This document shows, one piece after another, positions 2,745 through 15,781 of a stretch of 21,391 nt of DNA (positions are counted from its first letter, which is position 1; each line of letters starts with the position of its first letter). The stretch is taken from the IMG/VR virus record IMGVR_UViG_3300045790_001538, positions 1-21,391 of that record; one strand, 5' to 3'. Under the pieces are notes generated by a model. The model was not told where the DNA came from, did no database searches, and was given only the letters and a program-made list of their open reading frames with translations. A program made the translations under genes and the position numbers. This DNA comes from a virus.

Positions 2745-4522
2745 ACCAGTCTCGCTTTCAATCGACGGCCAGCAGCAAACAACTCTTCAGTCGAAGACAT
2801 CCCAGGCGAACCGTTGTTCACATAGTTCAACGTCAGCCCAGAACCCCCAGCACGATCCAACGGGATCACCGAAGCGCCACGGCCAAGGTTCAATATTTCT
2901 GGCCCCTGCTCGCCAACCATGACCGAACCTGAACCAGTAATCGTTCCACCACTAGCAAGCATCGGAATTTTTCCAATGGTGAAATCAATCTCGCCACCCG
3001 TGATCCCGGCGATGAAATTGCCGACACCGTTCAGCCCATCAATGGCACCATTTACGAGGCGAATAATCGTGTTGATGTACCCCTTGATAAAGTCCACAAC
3101 AGTGTTGAAAACGCCTTGAACAATTCCGCCAATACCTTCAAAAATTGTTGAGAATGCGCCGACCAGGCCACTCCACAAACCCGACCACCAAGAGGCAATA
3201 CCCTCACCGATGGCAACAAAAGAGTTATACAAGTTTGTGAAATAGCCCACAACAGCACCCACAATGTTGTTCCAAACGGAAAGAATGAACTCAAATACGG
3301 CAGTCCACAAACCATTCCACCAACCAAGGAACGCATTGAGCCCATCCATGATCCAGCCGACGAATCCGCCCCAAACATCGAGCAGGAACTTTACAACAAC
3401 ATCCCAGTTCATCATCAGCGCAATAATGCCTGCAATAAGAAGGGCAATTCCAATGACAATCCATGTGATCGGGTTGGCAAGTAGCGCCATGGTAAACGCC
3501 CATGTGGAGGCAATAGCAGGGACCAAAGCGGTCACATACGCACCAATTCCACCGGCCGCCGCAATAGCCATTGCGATACCAACACCAGTAATTCCTAAGG
3601 CGATAAGGCCGAGGCCAATCGCAAGCGGAATAAGCCAGCTCGAATTTGACTGAATGTAATCAAAGACTCCCGTGATTGTTTCACCGGCAGTTTTGAAAGC
3701 AGGCGTCAACCCGTCAAGTTTTGCTGTAACTGCACCCAAAATCGTAGGGAAGTCTTTGAATGCTGGACCAAGAAAGGCTGCACCCAAACGGCCAACAGCC
3801 GCCCCCAGATTGTCAAAAGAGCCCTGCGTGGTTCCGCCGGAAGCAAGCGCAGCGCCACCAATGTTCTCCTCAATAACTTTGCGGAAAGTTGCCGAGTCAA
3901 CCTCACCATTAGCAACCATCTTGGAAAGAGCCTCTTGAGTGACCCCATACTCTGCTGCAAGCCACTGGAAGATTGGGATTCCACGATCAGCGAGTTGGTT
4001 CAAGTTATCTGTATAAACAACGCCGGTTGCCGTGGTCTTATTTATGATCGCACCCATGTCGGTGAGGGAAACACCAGCAATAGTTGCGGCATCGGCAGTT
4101 AGTTTGAGATATTTTTCAAGTTCCTGCCCCGGCTTGATCCCAGCGGCAAGGGCCGAAGCGGCGACGGTAGCCGCATCGCCCATTCCAAAAGCCGTCCCCT
4201 TTACTGCCGCGAGTGCGTCATCCATGATGCCGGTGACCTCAACAGCGGTCCATCCAAGGCCCGAAAGTTTTGCGGAAGCATTCTCAATGTCGCTAAGACG
4301 GTTGAAGCCTGAGACCATGACGGCCCCGAGCGCGGCAACTGCAGTAACAGCTGCAGCAATCCCGCCGACTTTTACTGCCTTGAGAAGCCCTTTGGAAAAG
4401 TCCATGCCAAATGAATCGCTTGCAGCCGCGCCAGCATCAGCAGATGCCTTCTCAAGAGTTTTTCCAAACCCGTCCGTAGTCGGAATGATTTGAACGTATG
4501 CCGTAGCAATAGCTGACGCCAT
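2741..4522 (-). CDS. Tape measure protein
   Basis: A 593-residue protein that sets tail length and passes into the host envelope during DNA entry. Residues 40-75 and about 290-375 are strongly hydrophobic (LIPLAIGLGLIALGITGVGI is one segment), probable membrane helices. Residues 80-230 match the conserved tape-measure N-domain (segments like ADAATIAGVSLTDMGAIINK and ADRGIPIFQWLA). After them comes a Trp-rich repeat region with WW/WNGLW spacing, and a C-terminal MVGEQGPEILNLGRG motif common in tape measures. At roughly 0.15 nm per residue it predicts a tail near 90 nm, on the short side. Ribosome site AAGGAG lies nine bases before the ATG. It follows the tail chaperones, as expected. Confidence 0.95.
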   Translation of the reverse strand: MASAIATAYVQIIPTTDGFGKTLEKASADAGAAASDSFGMDFSKGLLKAVKVGGIAAAVTAVAALGAVMVSGFNRLSDIENASAKLSGLGWTAVEVTGIMDDALAAVKGTAFGMGDAATVAASALAAGIKPGQELEKYLKLTADAATIAGVSLTDMGAIINKTTATGVVYTDNLNQLADRGIPIFQWLAAEYGVTQEALSKMVANGEVDSATFRKVIEENIGGAALASGGTTQGSFDNLGAAVGRLGAAFLGPAFKDFPTILGAVTAKLDGLTPAFKTAGETITGVFDYIQSNSSWLIPLAIGLGLIALGITGVGIAMAIAAAGGIGAYVTALVPAIASTWAFTMALLANPITWIVIGIALLIAGIIALMMNWDVVVKFLLDVWGGFVGWIMDGLNAFLGWWNGLWTAVFEFILSVWNNIVGAVVGYFTNLYNSFVAIGEGIASWWSGLWSGLVGAFSTIFEGIGGIVQGVFNTVVDFIKGYINTIIRLVNGAIDGLNGVGNFIAGITGGEIDFTIGKIPMLASGGTITGSGSVMVGEQGPEILNLGRGASVIPLDRAGGSGLTLNYVNNGSPGMSSTEELFAAGRRLKARLV

Positions 4523-5154
4523 TTAGGACTCCTTAGGGTTCATGCGTTCAAGATTCTTCAAAACTGTGGAACGAGAGTGGGCAGCCTTTCCTGACTTCAC
4601 CGCATTACTTTTCAGCCACGGTCTAGGAATAGGTTTGACCTTCTTCTTTGAGTTGACCTGATGAGTCAGGTCAAAAAGTTCCGCCAACAGCATCCACTCA
4701 CTCGACGTCGGGTTCTTCCACCCAGAACGAGCAGCCTGCAACCACGACGCCGGGTCCCTCAAAAGAATGCGGACAAGATGGAGCGCCTCAAAATATGTGA
4801 CGCCCCGCCCGACGTCATCGAAGGAGAACGAAAAATGACTCCTAAAATCTGCACGAATCTCACTTGGGTGAGACTCCGCAAGTTCTAAGAGCCAGAGGAT
4901 TCCCCCAGTGAAACGCCAGACCCGTTGTCCGTCCACGACTTGATGAATAGGTTGAACTCATCAATAGACATGGCATCAACAGCGGCAAGCTCCTTGGAGT
5001 CAATGCCAAGCGTCGTTTCGAGGATGACGAATGCTCGGCCAAGGTCATCACTTTCATGACGTGACTTGCGCAAAGTTCCTGCGGATAGATTGGAAAACTT
5101 GGGGATTGTGTACTTCTTGCCAGCTTGCTCAAAATGGAATAGTTCAGTAGCCAT
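4523..5154 (-). CDS. Long tail assembly chaperone made by -1 frameshift
   Basis: The frame starting at ATG 5154 and the frame ending at 4523 overlap in the region 4885-4936 and are offset by -1. Slipping on GGGGGAA at 4906-4900 joins residues 1-84 of the short chaperone to 126 residues of the second frame, giving a protein of about 210 residues. The second part reads ILWLLELAESHPSEI and ends in a Lys/Arg-rich tail (KKKVKPIPRPWLK). It has no ribosome site of its own. This is the G/GT arrangement of siphophages, in which the long form binds the tape measure and brings tube subunits to it. Position between major tail protein and tape measure supports the call. Confidence 0.83.
4885..5154 (-). 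CDS. Short tail assembly chaperone
   Basis: An 89-residue protein, beginning MATELFHFEQAGKKYTIPKF, which is made when no frameshift happens. Lambda-G-like chaperones of this length coat the tape measure during tail building and are absent from the finished virion. It contains a helical acidic middle (IDEFNLFIKSW) and ends GESSGS shortly after the slip site. A purine-rich GAAGAG ribosome site lies upstream of the ATG, and a strong 12-bp hairpin stands between this gene and the major tail protein gene. Confidence 0.85.
   Translation of the reverse strand: MATELFHFEQAGKKYTIPKFSNLSAGTLRKSRHESDDLGRAFVILETTLGIDSKELAAVDAMSIDEFNLFIKSWTDNGSGVSLGESSGS
4900..4906 (-). other. -1 ribosomal frameshift slip site (GGGGGAA)
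   Basis: On the minus strand the short chaperone frame reads CTG GGG GAA TCC; slipping one base back on the run of five G keeps GGG paired and continues as GGA ATC CTC. The short frame stops within 20 bases after the site. The motif fits the G-rich slip sites of tail-chaperone genes. Confidence 0.8.
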
Positions 5155-5195
5155 TGTGGACTCTTCTCTTCTGTGAGTGGACTAAAAGGGTGGAG

Positions 5196-5229
5196 CCGTG
5201 ACTGGTGAGTCCACACACACCAGCCACGG
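5196..5229 (-). other. Strong hairpin between major tail protein and tail chaperone genes
   Basis: Minus strand CCGTGGCTGGTG and CACCAGTCACGG form a 12-bp stem with one G-U pair and a 10-base loop. A CTTTT run follows only after several unpaired bases, so it is a weak terminator at best; a role as a 3'-end stabiliser of the tail-tube mRNA is possible. The loop bases GTGGACT can also pair with AGTCCAC at 5179-5185 just downstream, giving an alternative fold. Confidence 0.6.
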
Positions 5230-5240
5230 GGTTTAGTGGG

Positions 5241-5768
5241 TTAGACCTCGAACTCGCCGTAGTAGGAGTCGAACGTGCGGCCCTCAGAGACATAGCAAGT
5301 GACCGTCACCGAGTACGCGATAGCTTCACCGTTAGCGACCATGATCGAATCGACGGACATAACCTCGCCAGCAGGAATGTAATGACGAATAATTTTCGCT
5401 CCATCAACAATGTCGATGACGAACGACTTGCGGCCACCAGTAGCGGAAGGGTTCACTTCGAGCTTGCCGGCAACAACGGTCGCACCGAAGTAAAGTTCCA
5501 AGACGGCCTCAGAAGTTTCCAGCAATGTGAAAGAGAACATGGAAGTTGCCTCGGTGATTGTTTCGCGCACGAGGTCACTGTTCTGCCATCCACGGATTTG
5601 AGACGTGGACTTATCCGTCGCAATCTCAATACCATCAGCAGACACATAACCAAGCTCTTCGAACGTGGTCAAAGCAGACACAGAACTAGTTGGTGCAGTA
5701 GCAGTGACAGGGGCAACATAAACTTTGCCTGAAATGCCCACCACAACGTTTTCGGCTGTAAGAGCCAT
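5241..5768 (-). CDS. Major tail (tube) protein
   Basis: A 175-residue protein forming the tail tube. It opens MALTAENVVVGISGKVYVAP and continues with ELGYVSADGIEIATDKSTSQIRGWQN, a pattern seen in siphophage tube proteins where the N-terminal strand is followed by a gating loop. The rest is beta-rich with EAVLELYFGA and a final YYGEFEV. AAGGAG lies eight bases before the ATG, one of the best ribosome sites of the window, as expected for an abundant protein. A terminator-like hairpin stands just upstream and another hairpin just downstream of the gene. Confidence 0.92.
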   Translation of the reverse strand: MALTAENVVVGISGKVYVAPVTATAPTSSVSALTTFEELGYVSADGIEIATDKSTSQIRGWQNSDLVRETITEATSMFSFTLLETSEAVLELYFGATVVAGKLEVNPSATGGRKSFVIDIVDGAKIIRHYIPAGEVMSVDSIMVANGEAIAYSVTVTCYVSEGRTFDSYYGEFEV

Positions 5769-11173: not shown

Positions 11174-12853
11174 CTAATAAATGCGGCGAGGAGCCGACTT
11201 GGCGCGAAAAGACACACCCTTACCCAACGCATCAATCCCACATGCGTGCGCGAAAGCTGCACCCCAAACGGCGTCAATCTTCGAATAGTCCTGGTCGTTC
11301 TCTGGTTTAGACAAGACGTAACCGTTTCGGCGTGCATCGCGTCGTGCGTTCAAAAAATGGGACGTAAGAGCAGAAGAACCGTCATGAGTGAGATCACCGG
11401 AAACAATCGCGGAGTGCATGTTCGCAAACGCATCCACTGTGCGGCTCAAATCTTTCTGACGCCACCGGATAGGTTCGTTCTCGCTCAACTTCACCTTCAA
11501 CTGCCGGTGATACTCAGACTCCCAAGTTTTCACCTGACCAGCCCAACCCGCAGACGGGTCAGCATAAAAACCGACCACGTTGAAGTTCTTGAACGTATCC
11601 CGAACAGCAGCCTCCACCTCAATCGCTGGTGGACGCCACCCTTCGCCGGCAGGCCCGTCAGGTTGCTCCCACACACCAATCTGAAAGAGGTGCTTCTGGT
11701 TCACCGAATACCCGATGAGGACAGTGGAGTCGGCAATACCCATTCCGGGTTTGCGACCCTCCGAACCGTCAAAGCCAAGAGTGATTGGTTCAGCCTTTGT
11801 CACTACCTTTTCGAGGTCTTGAATGGCACGCCACTCAGGTTGCGAAATGAATGAATTACTCGCATGAGTAATCTGGTTCAAAAAGTCTTGACGCATTGTT
11901 TGAGGATCGTTCGAAGTATCCCAAAAGTCCATCGCAATACGGCCAATAGGAGACCAACCCGGAGCACACGAAGGAGTGTGAATGACACACCCGTCAGCAT
12001 GGTCAGACGAATCACCATAAGCAACCCGAAGACCAGCCACCAACGACTCCATGTCGCCAGGATCAGTATCCGCCGGAGCCTCACGATGGTCATACAAAAG
12101 TGAGCGCATATCCTGCTCATCAACCTGCTTCAACTTGCCAGACTTGATATTGTCCCAAAACTTTGCCGAATCCTCAGCGACAGAACGCTCACCAGGAGTA
12201 AAAGCGTTAGGCGACTCAATCGTCACTCCGCCAATCTTCGTAGCGTTATTCCTAAGGTTCTGAGCGAAACGTTTACCGCCGTTACCCTGAACCCACTCCT
12301 CCGTCTGGTCCATGATGGCCGCAACCGCGCGAGCACCCTTCACCGCACGAGCAGAAGAAGCGCGAGGCTCAATCTTTCCCGACCTCATATTCACAAACGT
12401 GTCCAACGGTTCAAGATCAAAATCGTCAACGGCAGAACCCTCACGAAGCATCTCAAGAAGAGGCGTCCAAGTGTTCTTAACCTGCTCCTCCGACGTCGCC
12501 GTGATGAGGACTAGCGGAGTGCGTAACTCGGCCCACGGTTTCCCAACAGGTTGACCGCCAGCATCCCAACCATCGAAACACACATCAAACAAGCCCTCAG
12601 CAATACCAATCGCCGCAAGAAACGGAGACTTACCCCAACCACGAGGACGCTGCAACACAGCACGATGCTTCACACGATGCCCATTCAAAGGATCAACCTC
12701 ATACAATCGCACCAAAAACTCAAGCTGCTCACGAGTCACATTGAATGGCTCATACTCTGCACGATCCGGTGCCGCAAGATGCTCCGCCATCTGATCGGCA
12801 ATACGCCAACCCAAAGAAGGAAACGCCTCCTCGCCGGCAGGCTTCCAAGGCAC
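11174..12853 (-). CDS. terL: Terminase large subunit
   Basis: A 559-residue packaging motor that cuts concatemeric DNA and pumps it into the head. The ATPase part shows a Walker A-like QRPRGWGKS (about residues 68-76), LVLITATSEEQ (about 115-124) and a Walker B-like IMDQTEEW (about 181-188). The nuclease part shows acidic residues in LGFDGSEG (about 360-367), GFYADPS (about 429-435) and KIDAV (about 526-530), as in RNase H-fold nucleases. The start is GTG at 12853, overlapping the small-subunit stop as TAGTG. Length and order are normal. Confidence 0.95.
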   Translation of the reverse strand: MPWKPAGEEAFPSLGWRIADQMAEHLAAPDRAEYEPFNVTREQLEFLVRLYEVDPLNGHRVKHRAVLQRPRGWGKSPFLAAIGIAEGLFDVCFDGWDAGGQPVGKPWAELRTPLVLITATSEEQVKNTWTPLLEMLREGSAVDDFDLEPLDTFVNMRSGKIEPRASSARAVKGARAVAAIMDQTEEWVQGNGGKRFAQNLRNNATKIGGVTIESPNAFTPGERSVAEDSAKFWDNIKSGKLKQVDEQDMRSLLYDHREAPADTDPGDMESLVAGLRVAYGDSSDHADGCVIHTPSCAPGWSPIGRIAMDFWDTSNDPQTMRQDFLNQITHASNSFISQPEWRAIQDLEKVVTKAEPITLGFDGSEGRKPGMGIADSTVLIGYSVNQKHLFQIGVWEQPDGPAGEGWRPPAIEVEAAVRDTFKNFNVVGFYADPSAGWAGQVKTWESEYHRQLKVKLSENEPIRWRQKDLSRTVDAFANMHSAIVSGDLTHDGSSALTSHFLNARRDARRNGYVLSKPENDQDYSKIDAVWGAAFAHACGIDALGKGVSFRAKSAPRRIY

Positions 12854-13317
12854 TACTCGCCCACACGTTCAGCAGGAATACTCATACCAGCGAAACGGTC
12901 ACGCGAAGACTTAGAAACAACCTTCACCTCAGCATCCGTCGCCTGAGCAAAAGTAATTCGCAGACGGGCACGATCCTCAGGGGTCGCCCCAAACTTTGCT
13001 GTACGCAAACGCAACTCACCAGCAAGATTCGTTGAACCAGTCCAATAGCGCGCATGAAGCAAAGCTGTGTCGCGCAACTCCGACCAATCAGTCGAAGTGA
13101 AATCAACAGCCAAAGGCGAATCCGCCCACATCTGCCACCACTCAACGGTTATCTGAGGCCAAACAAACTGAACCCACTCGCCATCGACGTCGGTTGAGAA
13201 ATCAGGCAACACCGGCTGAGCCGCCAAAATCGCGGGAAGAATACGCATGACAACAGGGTCTTTAGAATGACCAGCACGCTTATTCGGGTCTTTAGGTTGA
13301 GGGCCACGACCGGCCAT
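12853..13317 (-). CDS. terS: Terminase small subunit
   Basis: A 154-residue protein starting MAGRGPQPKDPNKRAGHSKDP, the basic N-terminal start shared by actinophage small terminases. The centre (WPQITVEWWQMWADSPLA, TDWSELRDTALLHARYW) is helical, and the C-terminus has RARLRITFAQA. Small subunits recognise the packaging site and regulate the large subunit. GGGGAGG lies five bases before the ATG. It directly precedes and overlaps the large-subunit gene, and the candidate cos region lies about 800 bases upstream. Confidence 0.88.
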   Translation of the reverse strand: MAGRGPQPKDPNKRAGHSKDPVVMRILPAILAAQPVLPDFSTDVDGEWVQFVWPQITVEWWQMWADSPLAVDFTSTDWSELRDTALLHARYWTGSTNLAGELRLRTAKFGATPEDRARLRITFAQATDAEVKVVSKSSRDRFAGMSIPAERVGE

Positions 13318-14179: not shown

Positions 14180-14494
14180 CTATTTGAGACCGAAGTGTGA
14201 TTCTTGTGGTCTTCTGCTGCTCTTCGTTGGGTCTTTGACGCGGCGCTGGTGGGCTTCTTTGCTCTCCCGTGCGGTCTTACGGTTGTGATGCCAGCTACAA
14301 AGCCATTGGAGGTTACTGGGCTCGTGGTTGTCGCCGTGAATAATGTGATCGCAGTCTGTCCCGGTTTCACTGCATCGTGTGCCGTCGTGCATGGTCGCTT
14401 GGCACCTACCCCCGGCCCGGGTACGAGTGTTCTCGACTAGTGTTGCCCACCCCCTGGGGAGTCTTGAACGCCGGTCTGATTGTTCCCAGCCCAT
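14180..14494 (-). CDS. HNH endonuclease
   Basis: A 104-residue protein. The start is placed at ATG 14494 because AGAGG stands five bases before it; an in-frame GTG at 14500 is the alternative. The fold signature is LPRGWATLVENTRTRAGGRC, then the zinc/HNH part DCDHIIHGDNHEPSNLQWLC and WHHNRKTARE, with the D-H pair, central N and last H of the HNH motif present. Phage HNH proteins next to terminase genes help cut DNA at the packaging site together with terminase. Its 5' end is 46 bases from the start of the plus-strand lipoprotein gene, so the two are divergent. Confidence 0.92.
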   Translation of the reverse strand: MGWEQSDRRSRLPRGWATLVENTRTRAGGRCQATMHDGTRCSETGTDCDHIIHGDNHEPSNLQWLCSWHHNRKTARESKEAHQRRVKDPTKSSRRPQESHFGLK

Positions 14495-14540
14495 AGGCAC
14501 CTCTTAGGTGTTGTCAGTGTTTGAGCGTAGTGTGCGCTAT

Positions 14541-14936
14541 ATGGGGAAATTATTGATAGTCCTAATGTCCGCGTTTCTGCTCGCTGGGTGTTCTTCAACG
14601 CCTACTGCTGAGCCAAACTCTTCGGAGGTTTCTACTGTGCCCATTGTTGACCGGGTTCAAGCGGGGTTACTTGCCGGCCTCAATGTTGAGCGGTTCAGCG
14701 ACGTCTCGACAACTGACCCGAATAGTTTGTGGCCCTACATTGCTTCAATGAAAGAGTTGAACGCGAACACTGTAGAGATCACTGTCCAACTCAATGAGGC
14801 AGACACGGACCGCGAGAACTTCAAGCTGTTGTCTTCTCGTGCCGTTTCACTCTTGAACGGCAGCATTGAAGGGCTCGATTGGATTGTTGTCCGCTCAGCA
14901 GATGGAAACATCACCGAGCAAACAATGGTCGGTTAG
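14541..14936 (+). CDS. Putative secreted lipoprotein, the only plus-strand gene
   Basis: A 131-residue protein if it starts at ATG 14541; the frame is open up to a GTG at 14508. The first 17 residues form a lipoprotein signal (MGKLLIVLMSAFLLAGC) with an LAGC lipobox, then a Ser/Thr/Pro linker (SSTPTAEPNSS) and an acidic domain with SLWPYIASMKELNANTVEIT. It would be anchored on the outer face of the host membrane. Phage lipoproteins are often superinfection-exclusion factors or lysogenic conversion genes, but nothing here proves that. It is transcribed against all its neighbours, so late minus-strand transcription would make antisense RNA to it. No clear promoter or ribosome site was found for it. 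The domain is not recognised. Confidence 0.77.
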   Translation: MGKLLIVLMSAFLLAGCSSTPTAEPNSSEVSTVPIVDRVQAGLLAGLNVERFSDVSTTDPNSLWPYIASMKELNANTVEITVQLNEADTDRENFKLLSSRAVSLLNGSIEGLDWIVVRSADGNITEQTMVG

Positions 14937-14955: not shown

Positions 14956-15057
14956 TTAGCCCGCGCTGTTGGGTAGCTGGTGAGTACATGAGCGGGTAAC
15001 GCTCACCACTGGGTAATATCTGCCGCAAACTTTGCATCGATGATCTTCAACACTCAT
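14956..15057 (-). CDS. Very small Cys-rich protein (33 residues)
   Basis: ATG 15057 overlaps the stop of the gene upstream as ATGA, and the frame ends with TAA at 14956. The protein begins MSVEDHRCKVCGRYYPVV and continues to SCTHQLPNSAG. A CxxC pair (C8, C11) and a later C-x-H (C24, H26) could bind one zinc. The stop lies 19 bases from the stop of the convergent lipoprotein gene. The exact overlap supports it being real. Function unknown. Confidence 0.55.
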   Translation of the reverse strand: MSVEDHRCKVCGRYYPVVSVTRSCTHQLPNSAG

Positions 15058-15296
15058 TCGTCTGTGTAGTTTCCGTCAAACATTTCCATCCCCCATGAGA
15101 GGAGGCCGGTCATTGTGTATGAGGCTGCGTGTGGTGAACCTACGACGCGCACTTCTGTGGACGAATCTGTATCCCTGTGTAAGTCTTCAACACCGGCCAC
15201 AAGTATCCAGTCGCGGGCAAACTTTTGGTCGCCATCTTCGGAGGTCACATACGCTTGGACGGCTTCGATCAGGTTCATGTAAGCGTTGGTGGTCAT
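15054..15296 (-). CDS. Hypothetical protein, 80 residues
   Basis: Starts at ATG 15296, behind a very strong ribosome site (GGAGGTGCACATG). A longer frame opens at 15350 but would run through the tRNA-like element, so it is rejected. The sequence MTTNAYMNLIEAVQAYVTSE and DWILVAGVEDL resembles small proteins frequent in actinophage genomes whose function is not known. It is the first gene after the leader promoter, terminator and tRNA-like element, and is coupled to the 33-residue gene that follows. Confidence 0.7.
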   Translation of the reverse strand: MTTNAYMNLIEAVQAYVTSEDGDQKFARDWILVAGVEDLHRDTDSSTEVRVVGSPHAASYTMTGLLSWGMEMFDGNYTDE

Positions 15297-15505: not shown

Positions 15506-15532
15506 AAAACGCCCCCCATAAATGGAGAGCGT
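15506..15532 (-). terminator. Intrinsic terminator downstream of the HTH gene and leader promoter
   Basis: Minus strand ACGCTCTCCA, loop TTTA, TGGGGGGCGT form a 10-bp stem with two G-U pairs, ending in TTTT. The same stem on the plus strand would have A-C mismatches, so it is directed leftward. It ends the early operon and also stands about 30-55 bases after the predicted start site of the promoter at 15568-15596. Confidence 0.8.
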
Positions 15533-15567
15533 CTGTGTTTGGGTCGCGTAATGCGAACCTAGATAAA

Positions 15568-15596
15568 AATATATGCGCTTATTTTTTGGAAGTCAA
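15568..15596 (-). promoter_or_regulatory. Near-consensus sigma-70/SigA promoter facing left
   Basis: TTGACT (15596-15591), 17 bases, TATATT (15573-15568) on the minus strand. The -35 element overlaps the stop codon of the HTH gene. The predicted start is near 15560, so the first transcript would reach the terminator at 15506 after about 55 bases unless transcription is allowed to pass. It is the best promoter sequence in the window. Confidence 0.7.
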
Positions 15597-15781
15597 CTAC
15601 CTGAGCGGTGATTCTTGTTTCTCAGTTCTTCCTCTACGCGAAGCACGTCACCGCTTTTCACATAAATGCCCGGATCAAAATTGTGTGACACTAACTTGCC
15701 GGAACTAATCCACCGGCTGATTTGTGATTGGTTCCGTTCGGCGAGCACCGCTGCTTCCTTTATTGTGATCCACTCTTTCAT
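15593..15781 (-). CDS. Small winged-helix / excisionase-like DNA-binding protein
   Basis: A 62-residue protein starting MKEWITIKEAAVLAERNQSQ and continuing with ISRWISSGKLVSHNF and GIYVKSGDVLRVEEEL. The order of strand, helix-turn-helix (IKEAAVLAERNQSQISRWISSG) and a wing matches the MerR/excisionase-type HTH_17 family, which binds short DNA sites or acts in excision or transcription control. GGAGGAGAAG lies ahead of the ATG, which overlaps the previous TAA by one base. It is the last gene of the early operon, next to the main promoter, so it could be a regulator of that promoter; this is inference. Confidence 0.85.
   Translation of the reverse strand: MKEWITIKEAAVLAERNQSQISRWISSGKLVSHNFDPGIYVKSGDVLRVEEELRNKNHRSGS

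Follow-up and report, generated by a model that had tools for sequence, protein, structure and literature searches.

In lambda, the late promoter pR' is followed by an early terminator, tR', with the late genes downstream and the gene of the regulator, Q, adjoining on the upstream side. Three Q families have been described, which are unlike in both sequence and structure (PMC7171158). For the phages of actinobacteria, our searches of open-licence papers brought up no account of processive antitermination, and a 2017 study of D29 and L5 named the site of late transcription initiation as a point still open for the phages it treated (PMC5712189). In the actinophages Kampy and WC1, the non-coding region that opens the late block gives the strongest late signal. 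The cos region of Streptomyces phage phiC31 consists of a non-coding region, tRNA-Thr, a small gene, HNH, TerS and TerL, in this order (the tRNA stands before gp29 and HNH) and is preceded by an integrase gene; the late promoter of this phage presumably lies near the tRNA-Thr. In Microbacterium phage vB_MoxS-R1 (MW073100), an HTH ORF is followed by a -10 box, a hairpin with a T-rich tail (TTTCTTCG), a tRNA-Ala, small genes, an endonuclease and terminase. This HTH ORF (~3911-4098 of the R1 locus, immediately ahead of the -10 box and hairpin) is absent from the GenBank annotation.

Here, we describe a putative promoter and a hairpin at the border of the late genes in the window, our name for all 21,391 bases of an IMG/VR virus record; it is a fragment of the genome of a phage of actinobacteria. 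The features discussed below are collected in the table. The late genes, encoding an HNH endonuclease, a Prim-Pol-like protein, TerS, TerL, portal and capsid proteins, lie on the minus strand, and a DUF7213-like gene starts on the same strand ~210 nt beyond the hairpin. An earlier note on this DNA had taken everything to the left of the promoter as one co-directional late module; this is right for the genes from HNH to capsid and wrong for an ORF at 14508-14936, which is on the plus strand. This ORF, just before the HNH gene and opposite to the late genes, carries a lipoprotein-type signal (LLAGCSS) and has the look of a moron, a gene with expression of its own; in one relative (L002, ~5110-5604, minus strand of the locus), a comparable lipoprotein ORF, likewise on the opposite strand, occupies the equivalent place. 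Position and homology identify the gene at 12853-13317 (minus strand) as the terminase small subunit; its top PHROG match, phrog_226, is labelled minor tail protein, a label that is probably wrong here.

Table. Features of the window around the putative late promoter, with coordinates in the window.
Feature	Position	Strand	Basis and remarks
Candidate late regulator, zinc-ribbon protein, 205 aa	18641..19258	-	Profile search over loci; weak phrog_1467/1568 matches
Candidate regulator, small HTH gene, 62 aa, stop overlapping the -35 element	15593..15781	-	HTH_17 and MerR-like/excisionase matches; homologues ahead of the promoter-hairpin pair in relatives
Putative promoter, TTGACT-17-TATATT	15568..15596	-	Consensus scan and direct reading; position common to L105 and L107
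Weak first leader hairpin	15542..15559	-	-7.6 kcal/mol, z -2.9
Terminator-like hairpin, 11 bp, loop UUUA, UUUU tail	15506..15533	-	-16.0 kcal/mol, z -6.07; hairpins with T-rich tails at the equivalent place in relatives
tRNA-like cloverleaf, 4-nt anticodon loop	15311..15381	-	Covariance model of other actinophages' tRNAs: 39 bits, E 2.5e-10, sole window match
First gene after leader, DUF7213 / phrog_4307	15054..15296	-	Shine-Dalgarno AGGAGGTG
HNH endonuclease, start of the conserved late block	14180..14500	-	Homologues 60-63% identical before TerS/TerL in relatives
Terminase large subunit	11174..12853	-	phrog_9, E 1.5e-46

With a promoter and then a terminator-like hairpin before the late genes, the predicted elements of this locus have the layout of a Q-type late promoter. 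By sequence and conservation, the likeness to lambda covers an adjoining upstream gene for a candidate regulator, a consensus-like promoter, an early terminator-like hairpin and late genes downstream, whereas no lambda Q or Q21 protein is found in the window record and the host phylum differs. The order of elements is the same in vB_MoxS-R1, although R1 has no good -35 box, its leader sequence is unrelated and its tRNA-Ala can form a 7-nt anticodon loop. The phiC31 region shares the order from the non-coding region to TerL, but is preceded by the integrase gene rather than by a zinc-ribbon/HTH gene. Kampy and WC1 are distant phages, and the likeness seen there lies in the abundance of leader RNA. 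In Rhodococcus phage WC1 (locus L116), an HNH endonuclease (EVDHINPGDNHSPANLRAVCSHCHS) can be read on the plus strand at ~710-980, a place that the record assigns to gene WC1_2 on the minus strand; nc_1 would therefore lie just before an HNH gene.

The putative promoter consists of a -35 element (TTGACT, 15596-15591), a 17-bp spacer and a -10 element (TATATT, 15573-15568), with a predicted transcription start at ~15561. Its -35 element does overlap the stop codon of the 62-aa HTH gene (TGA, 15595-15593), as had been noted. The claim that it is the best promoter in the window stands for its sequence and position, but not for its uniqueness, as another 10/12 match with a 17-bp spacer lies at 230-258 on the plus strand, within a minus-strand tail gene, and is probably due to chance. 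Dinucleotide shuffles contained a mean of 1.48 sites per window scoring at least 10/12, with at least one such site in 83% of shuffles, so that the promoter match alone is not significant. For a match with a hairpin at least as stable as -15 kcal/mol inside the next 75 nt, the expectation is 0.05 per window, which makes the pair rarer than chance; judged from the window alone, it is suggestive, not compelling.

The hairpin, GACGCUCUCCA-UUUA-UGGGGGGCGUU (15533-15508), has 11 pairs, its stem can be lengthened by ACAC/GUGU pairing, and none of 200 shuffles was equally stable. It begins ~28 nt from the predicted start and carries UUUU at 15509-15506, in agreement with the stem with a TTTT tail described earlier at about 30 bases past the start; RNA from the predicted start to the hairpin tail would measure ~55-58 nt. 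Among the hallmarks of an intrinsic terminator, a stable hairpin is thus present (z -6), while the U-tract is limited to UUUU and is weak, because two of its four U lie inside the stem and CGUGU comes next. A strict terminator scan did not pick up this hairpin, owing to its G-U pairs and short tail. One study cited in PMC8355165 states in its title that a U-tract is required by mycobacterial RNA polymerase; PMC8355165 also cites Ingham 1995 for terminators without poly-U tails in the phiC31 early region. The stretch from the predicted start to the hairpin lacks an ATG, so that attenuation by a ribosome on a leader peptide is ruled out, and the region holds no known riboswitch or Rfam leader.

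A nucleotide search of the region against annotated phages gave no match, and neither the 62-aa HTH gene nor the DUF7213 gene found a relative in viral contigs. Relatives were instead found via TerL, which gave 8 viral loci and then 80 viral and 21 genome loci, and then via an HTH protein profile. The named hosts of the TerL loci are mostly Microbacteriaceae, along with Schaalia, Actinomyces, Kitasatospora, Streptomyces and Corynebacterium, and among named phages, vB_MoxS-R1 and Actinomyces phage xhp1 come closest. The early-late boundary of these relatives was located by profiles of the HTH and zinc-ribbon proteins, and a pair was counted where, around the stop of the zinc-ribbon/HTH gene, a promoter scored 7 or more and a hairpin within 90 nt reached -15 kcal/mol or better. 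The controls were the stops of 435 other long ORFs from these loci. The search for the pair in related phages, which the earlier note had proposed, showed that it recurs: 13 of 33 distinct loci have it, compared with 21 of the 435 control stops (Fisher p 3e-8, window included; 12 of 32 loci with the window left out), the loci being not all independent and the stop anchor having been picked after the pattern was noticed in some of them. Median promoter scores are 5.7 versus 3.1 at control stops (p 7e-5) and median hairpin energies -17.8 versus -16.6 (p 0.02). An earlier strand comparison over whole boundary regions, which often chose other sites, was mildly significant (p 0.011); the gene-stop anchor is clearer.

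The -10 element lies 19 bases after the stop in the window, as in L105 (TTGACA-17-TAACAT), and 20 bases after it in L107 (TTGACA-18-CACGAT). By inspection, a pair deeper in the boundary region is seen in further relatives (L005, L008, L024, L025, L032, L033, L035, L029, L056, L058, L073, L101 and L111), seven of which share the sequence from the -10 box to the stem. Two of them, L024 and L025, first end the early operon with a long hairpin of its own, after which come the promoter and a second hairpin; in these two and L032, the stem starts within ~10 nt of the predicted 5' end. R1 (L010) is among the relatives with just a -10-like box. DNA past the stems contains 29% T, against a background of 16%. 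In many hairpins (L006, L026, L029, L048, L059, L104), the T-rich tail can pair with the stretch before the stem to form an outer clamp, e.g. CGACA..TGTCG or ACGAC..GTCGT. Between groups of relatives, transcribed sequences differ and the arrangement is kept. As the pair recurs at the early-late boundary in relatives from Microbacteriaceae, Actinomycetaceae, Kitasatospora and Corynebacterium, we regard it as a real unit.

The candidates for a regulator are neighbours of the pair on its early side. In relatives, a zinc-ribbon protein (phrog_1467/908/1568) adjoins or is fused with an HTH domain, ahead of the promoter; the window encodes them in separate genes, ~2.9 kb from each other. Fusions at the end of the early block are seen in L008, L024, L025, L032, L034, L035 and L012 (5726-6508), and the L004 protein at the zinc-ribbon place matches DUF7341. 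The predicted structure of the fused L035 homologue is of low confidence (pLDDT 60); its PDB matches are confined to HTH domains of the MerR/BldC type, with no lambda Q among the matches listed. The candidate HTH regulator could instead be an activator or a repressor. In the window record, itself a genome fragment, lambda Q (PF03589) and Q21 (PF06530) gave no match at E 1, and Q82 (PF06323) gave none either, as was the case for the control genomes. Because the three Q families differ from each other, the absence of a Q match leaves room for an unrelated antiterminator. A look by eye for a sigma-dependent pause or a Q-binding element found nothing consistent between groups.

Beyond the hairpin, the leader contains a tRNA-like cloverleaf, a new observation beyond the earlier note. 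By a covariance model of related phages' tRNAs, the element (15381-15311) has a D arm, a T arm and an acceptor stem, and a tRNA-box pattern matches once in the window and in none of 100 shuffles. It was not reported by ARAGORN or Rfam, and an exact search of viral contigs found no such short-loop element. The anticodon stem-loop (TCAAC-AATG-GTTGA) has a loop of 4 nt where a functional tRNA gene has 7, which makes ordinary decoding unlikely. Several relatives have ordinary tRNAs near the equivalent place, including Arg(tct), Ala, Asp and Leu, and three tRNAs precede terminase in WC1. The element is perhaps a tRNA in decay, or one retained as a processing signal.

Our preferred reading, which we hold to be about an even call, takes the site for the late promoter of an actinobacterial siphovirus, followed by an attenuated leader. 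Where virion genes stand behind a consensus-like promoter, in a prophage-rich group, either a repressor or control after initiation is needed, and a leader terminator fits the latter. From the arrangement of the elements, we infer that host RNA polymerase would start near 15561 and that, by default, most complexes would stop at the hairpin (15533-15506), yielding an RNA of ~55 nt. At a later stage of the infection, some phage factor would let polymerase past the hairpin, and the read-through transcript would carry the tRNA-like element, then the DUF7213 gene, and the HNH, terminase, portal and capsid genes. The best candidates for this factor are the zinc-ribbon and HTH proteins, encoded just upstream in many relatives. 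Points against the attenuated late promoter are the short U-tract, the lack of a lambda Q or Q21 homologue, and the apparent resemblance of the candidate HTH protein to MerR/BldC, not to Q.

The same hairpin might chiefly terminate the early operon, perhaps in both directions, insulating early from late genes, with the promoter passively read through or the late start elsewhere; we consider this possible but rather doubtful. A terminator would be ordinary at this place, ~60 nt past the last co-directional early gene, and a two-way function would suit the many homologous hairpins that pair their T-rich tail with an A-rich stretch ahead of the stem, as well as L006, in which a convergent gene follows the hairpin. 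However, promoter-like sequences between stop and hairpin are far commoner than at control stops, and L024 and L025 keep the pair after a separate operon terminator. These two loci and L032, with stems so close to the predicted 5' end, resemble another arrangement, in which the hairpin stabilizes the late mRNA as a leader stem, or serves as a processing site, and terminates nothing. Tails that are just moderately T-rich would agree with this, but they are still above background in T and the window stem begins 28 nt from the start, and we find such a role unlikely.

A short transcript flanked by promoter and terminator could also be a stand-alone, trans-acting small RNA of ~55 nt, and other actinophages do have abundant non-coding RNAs (PMC5712189). 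Between the groups of relatives, however, the arrangement alone is conserved and the transcribed sequence is not, which makes a small RNA less likely, and we give this reading little credence. Finally, the promoter match might be due to chance, given the ~1.5 equally good sites expected per window and the relatives, such as R1, that show a -10-like box alone; since its position and its pairing with a hairpin are conserved, we deem this very improbable.

More broadly, the attenuated late promoter could be one case of a widespread actinophage late switch, a generalization that we put forward only tentatively, as an outside possibility: a constitutive late promoter, a terminator within ~60 nt, an upstream zinc-ribbon and MerR/BldC-like HTH antiterminator unrelated to known Q proteins, and a tRNA or decayed tRNA early in the read-through transcript. 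The recurrent promoter-terminator pair and its constant regulator neighbour make the early-late switch testable in an ordinary laboratory phage such as Microbacterium phage R1, and the pair might account for the abundance of late-operon leader RNA, which in some actinophage infections exceeds that of any other RNA.
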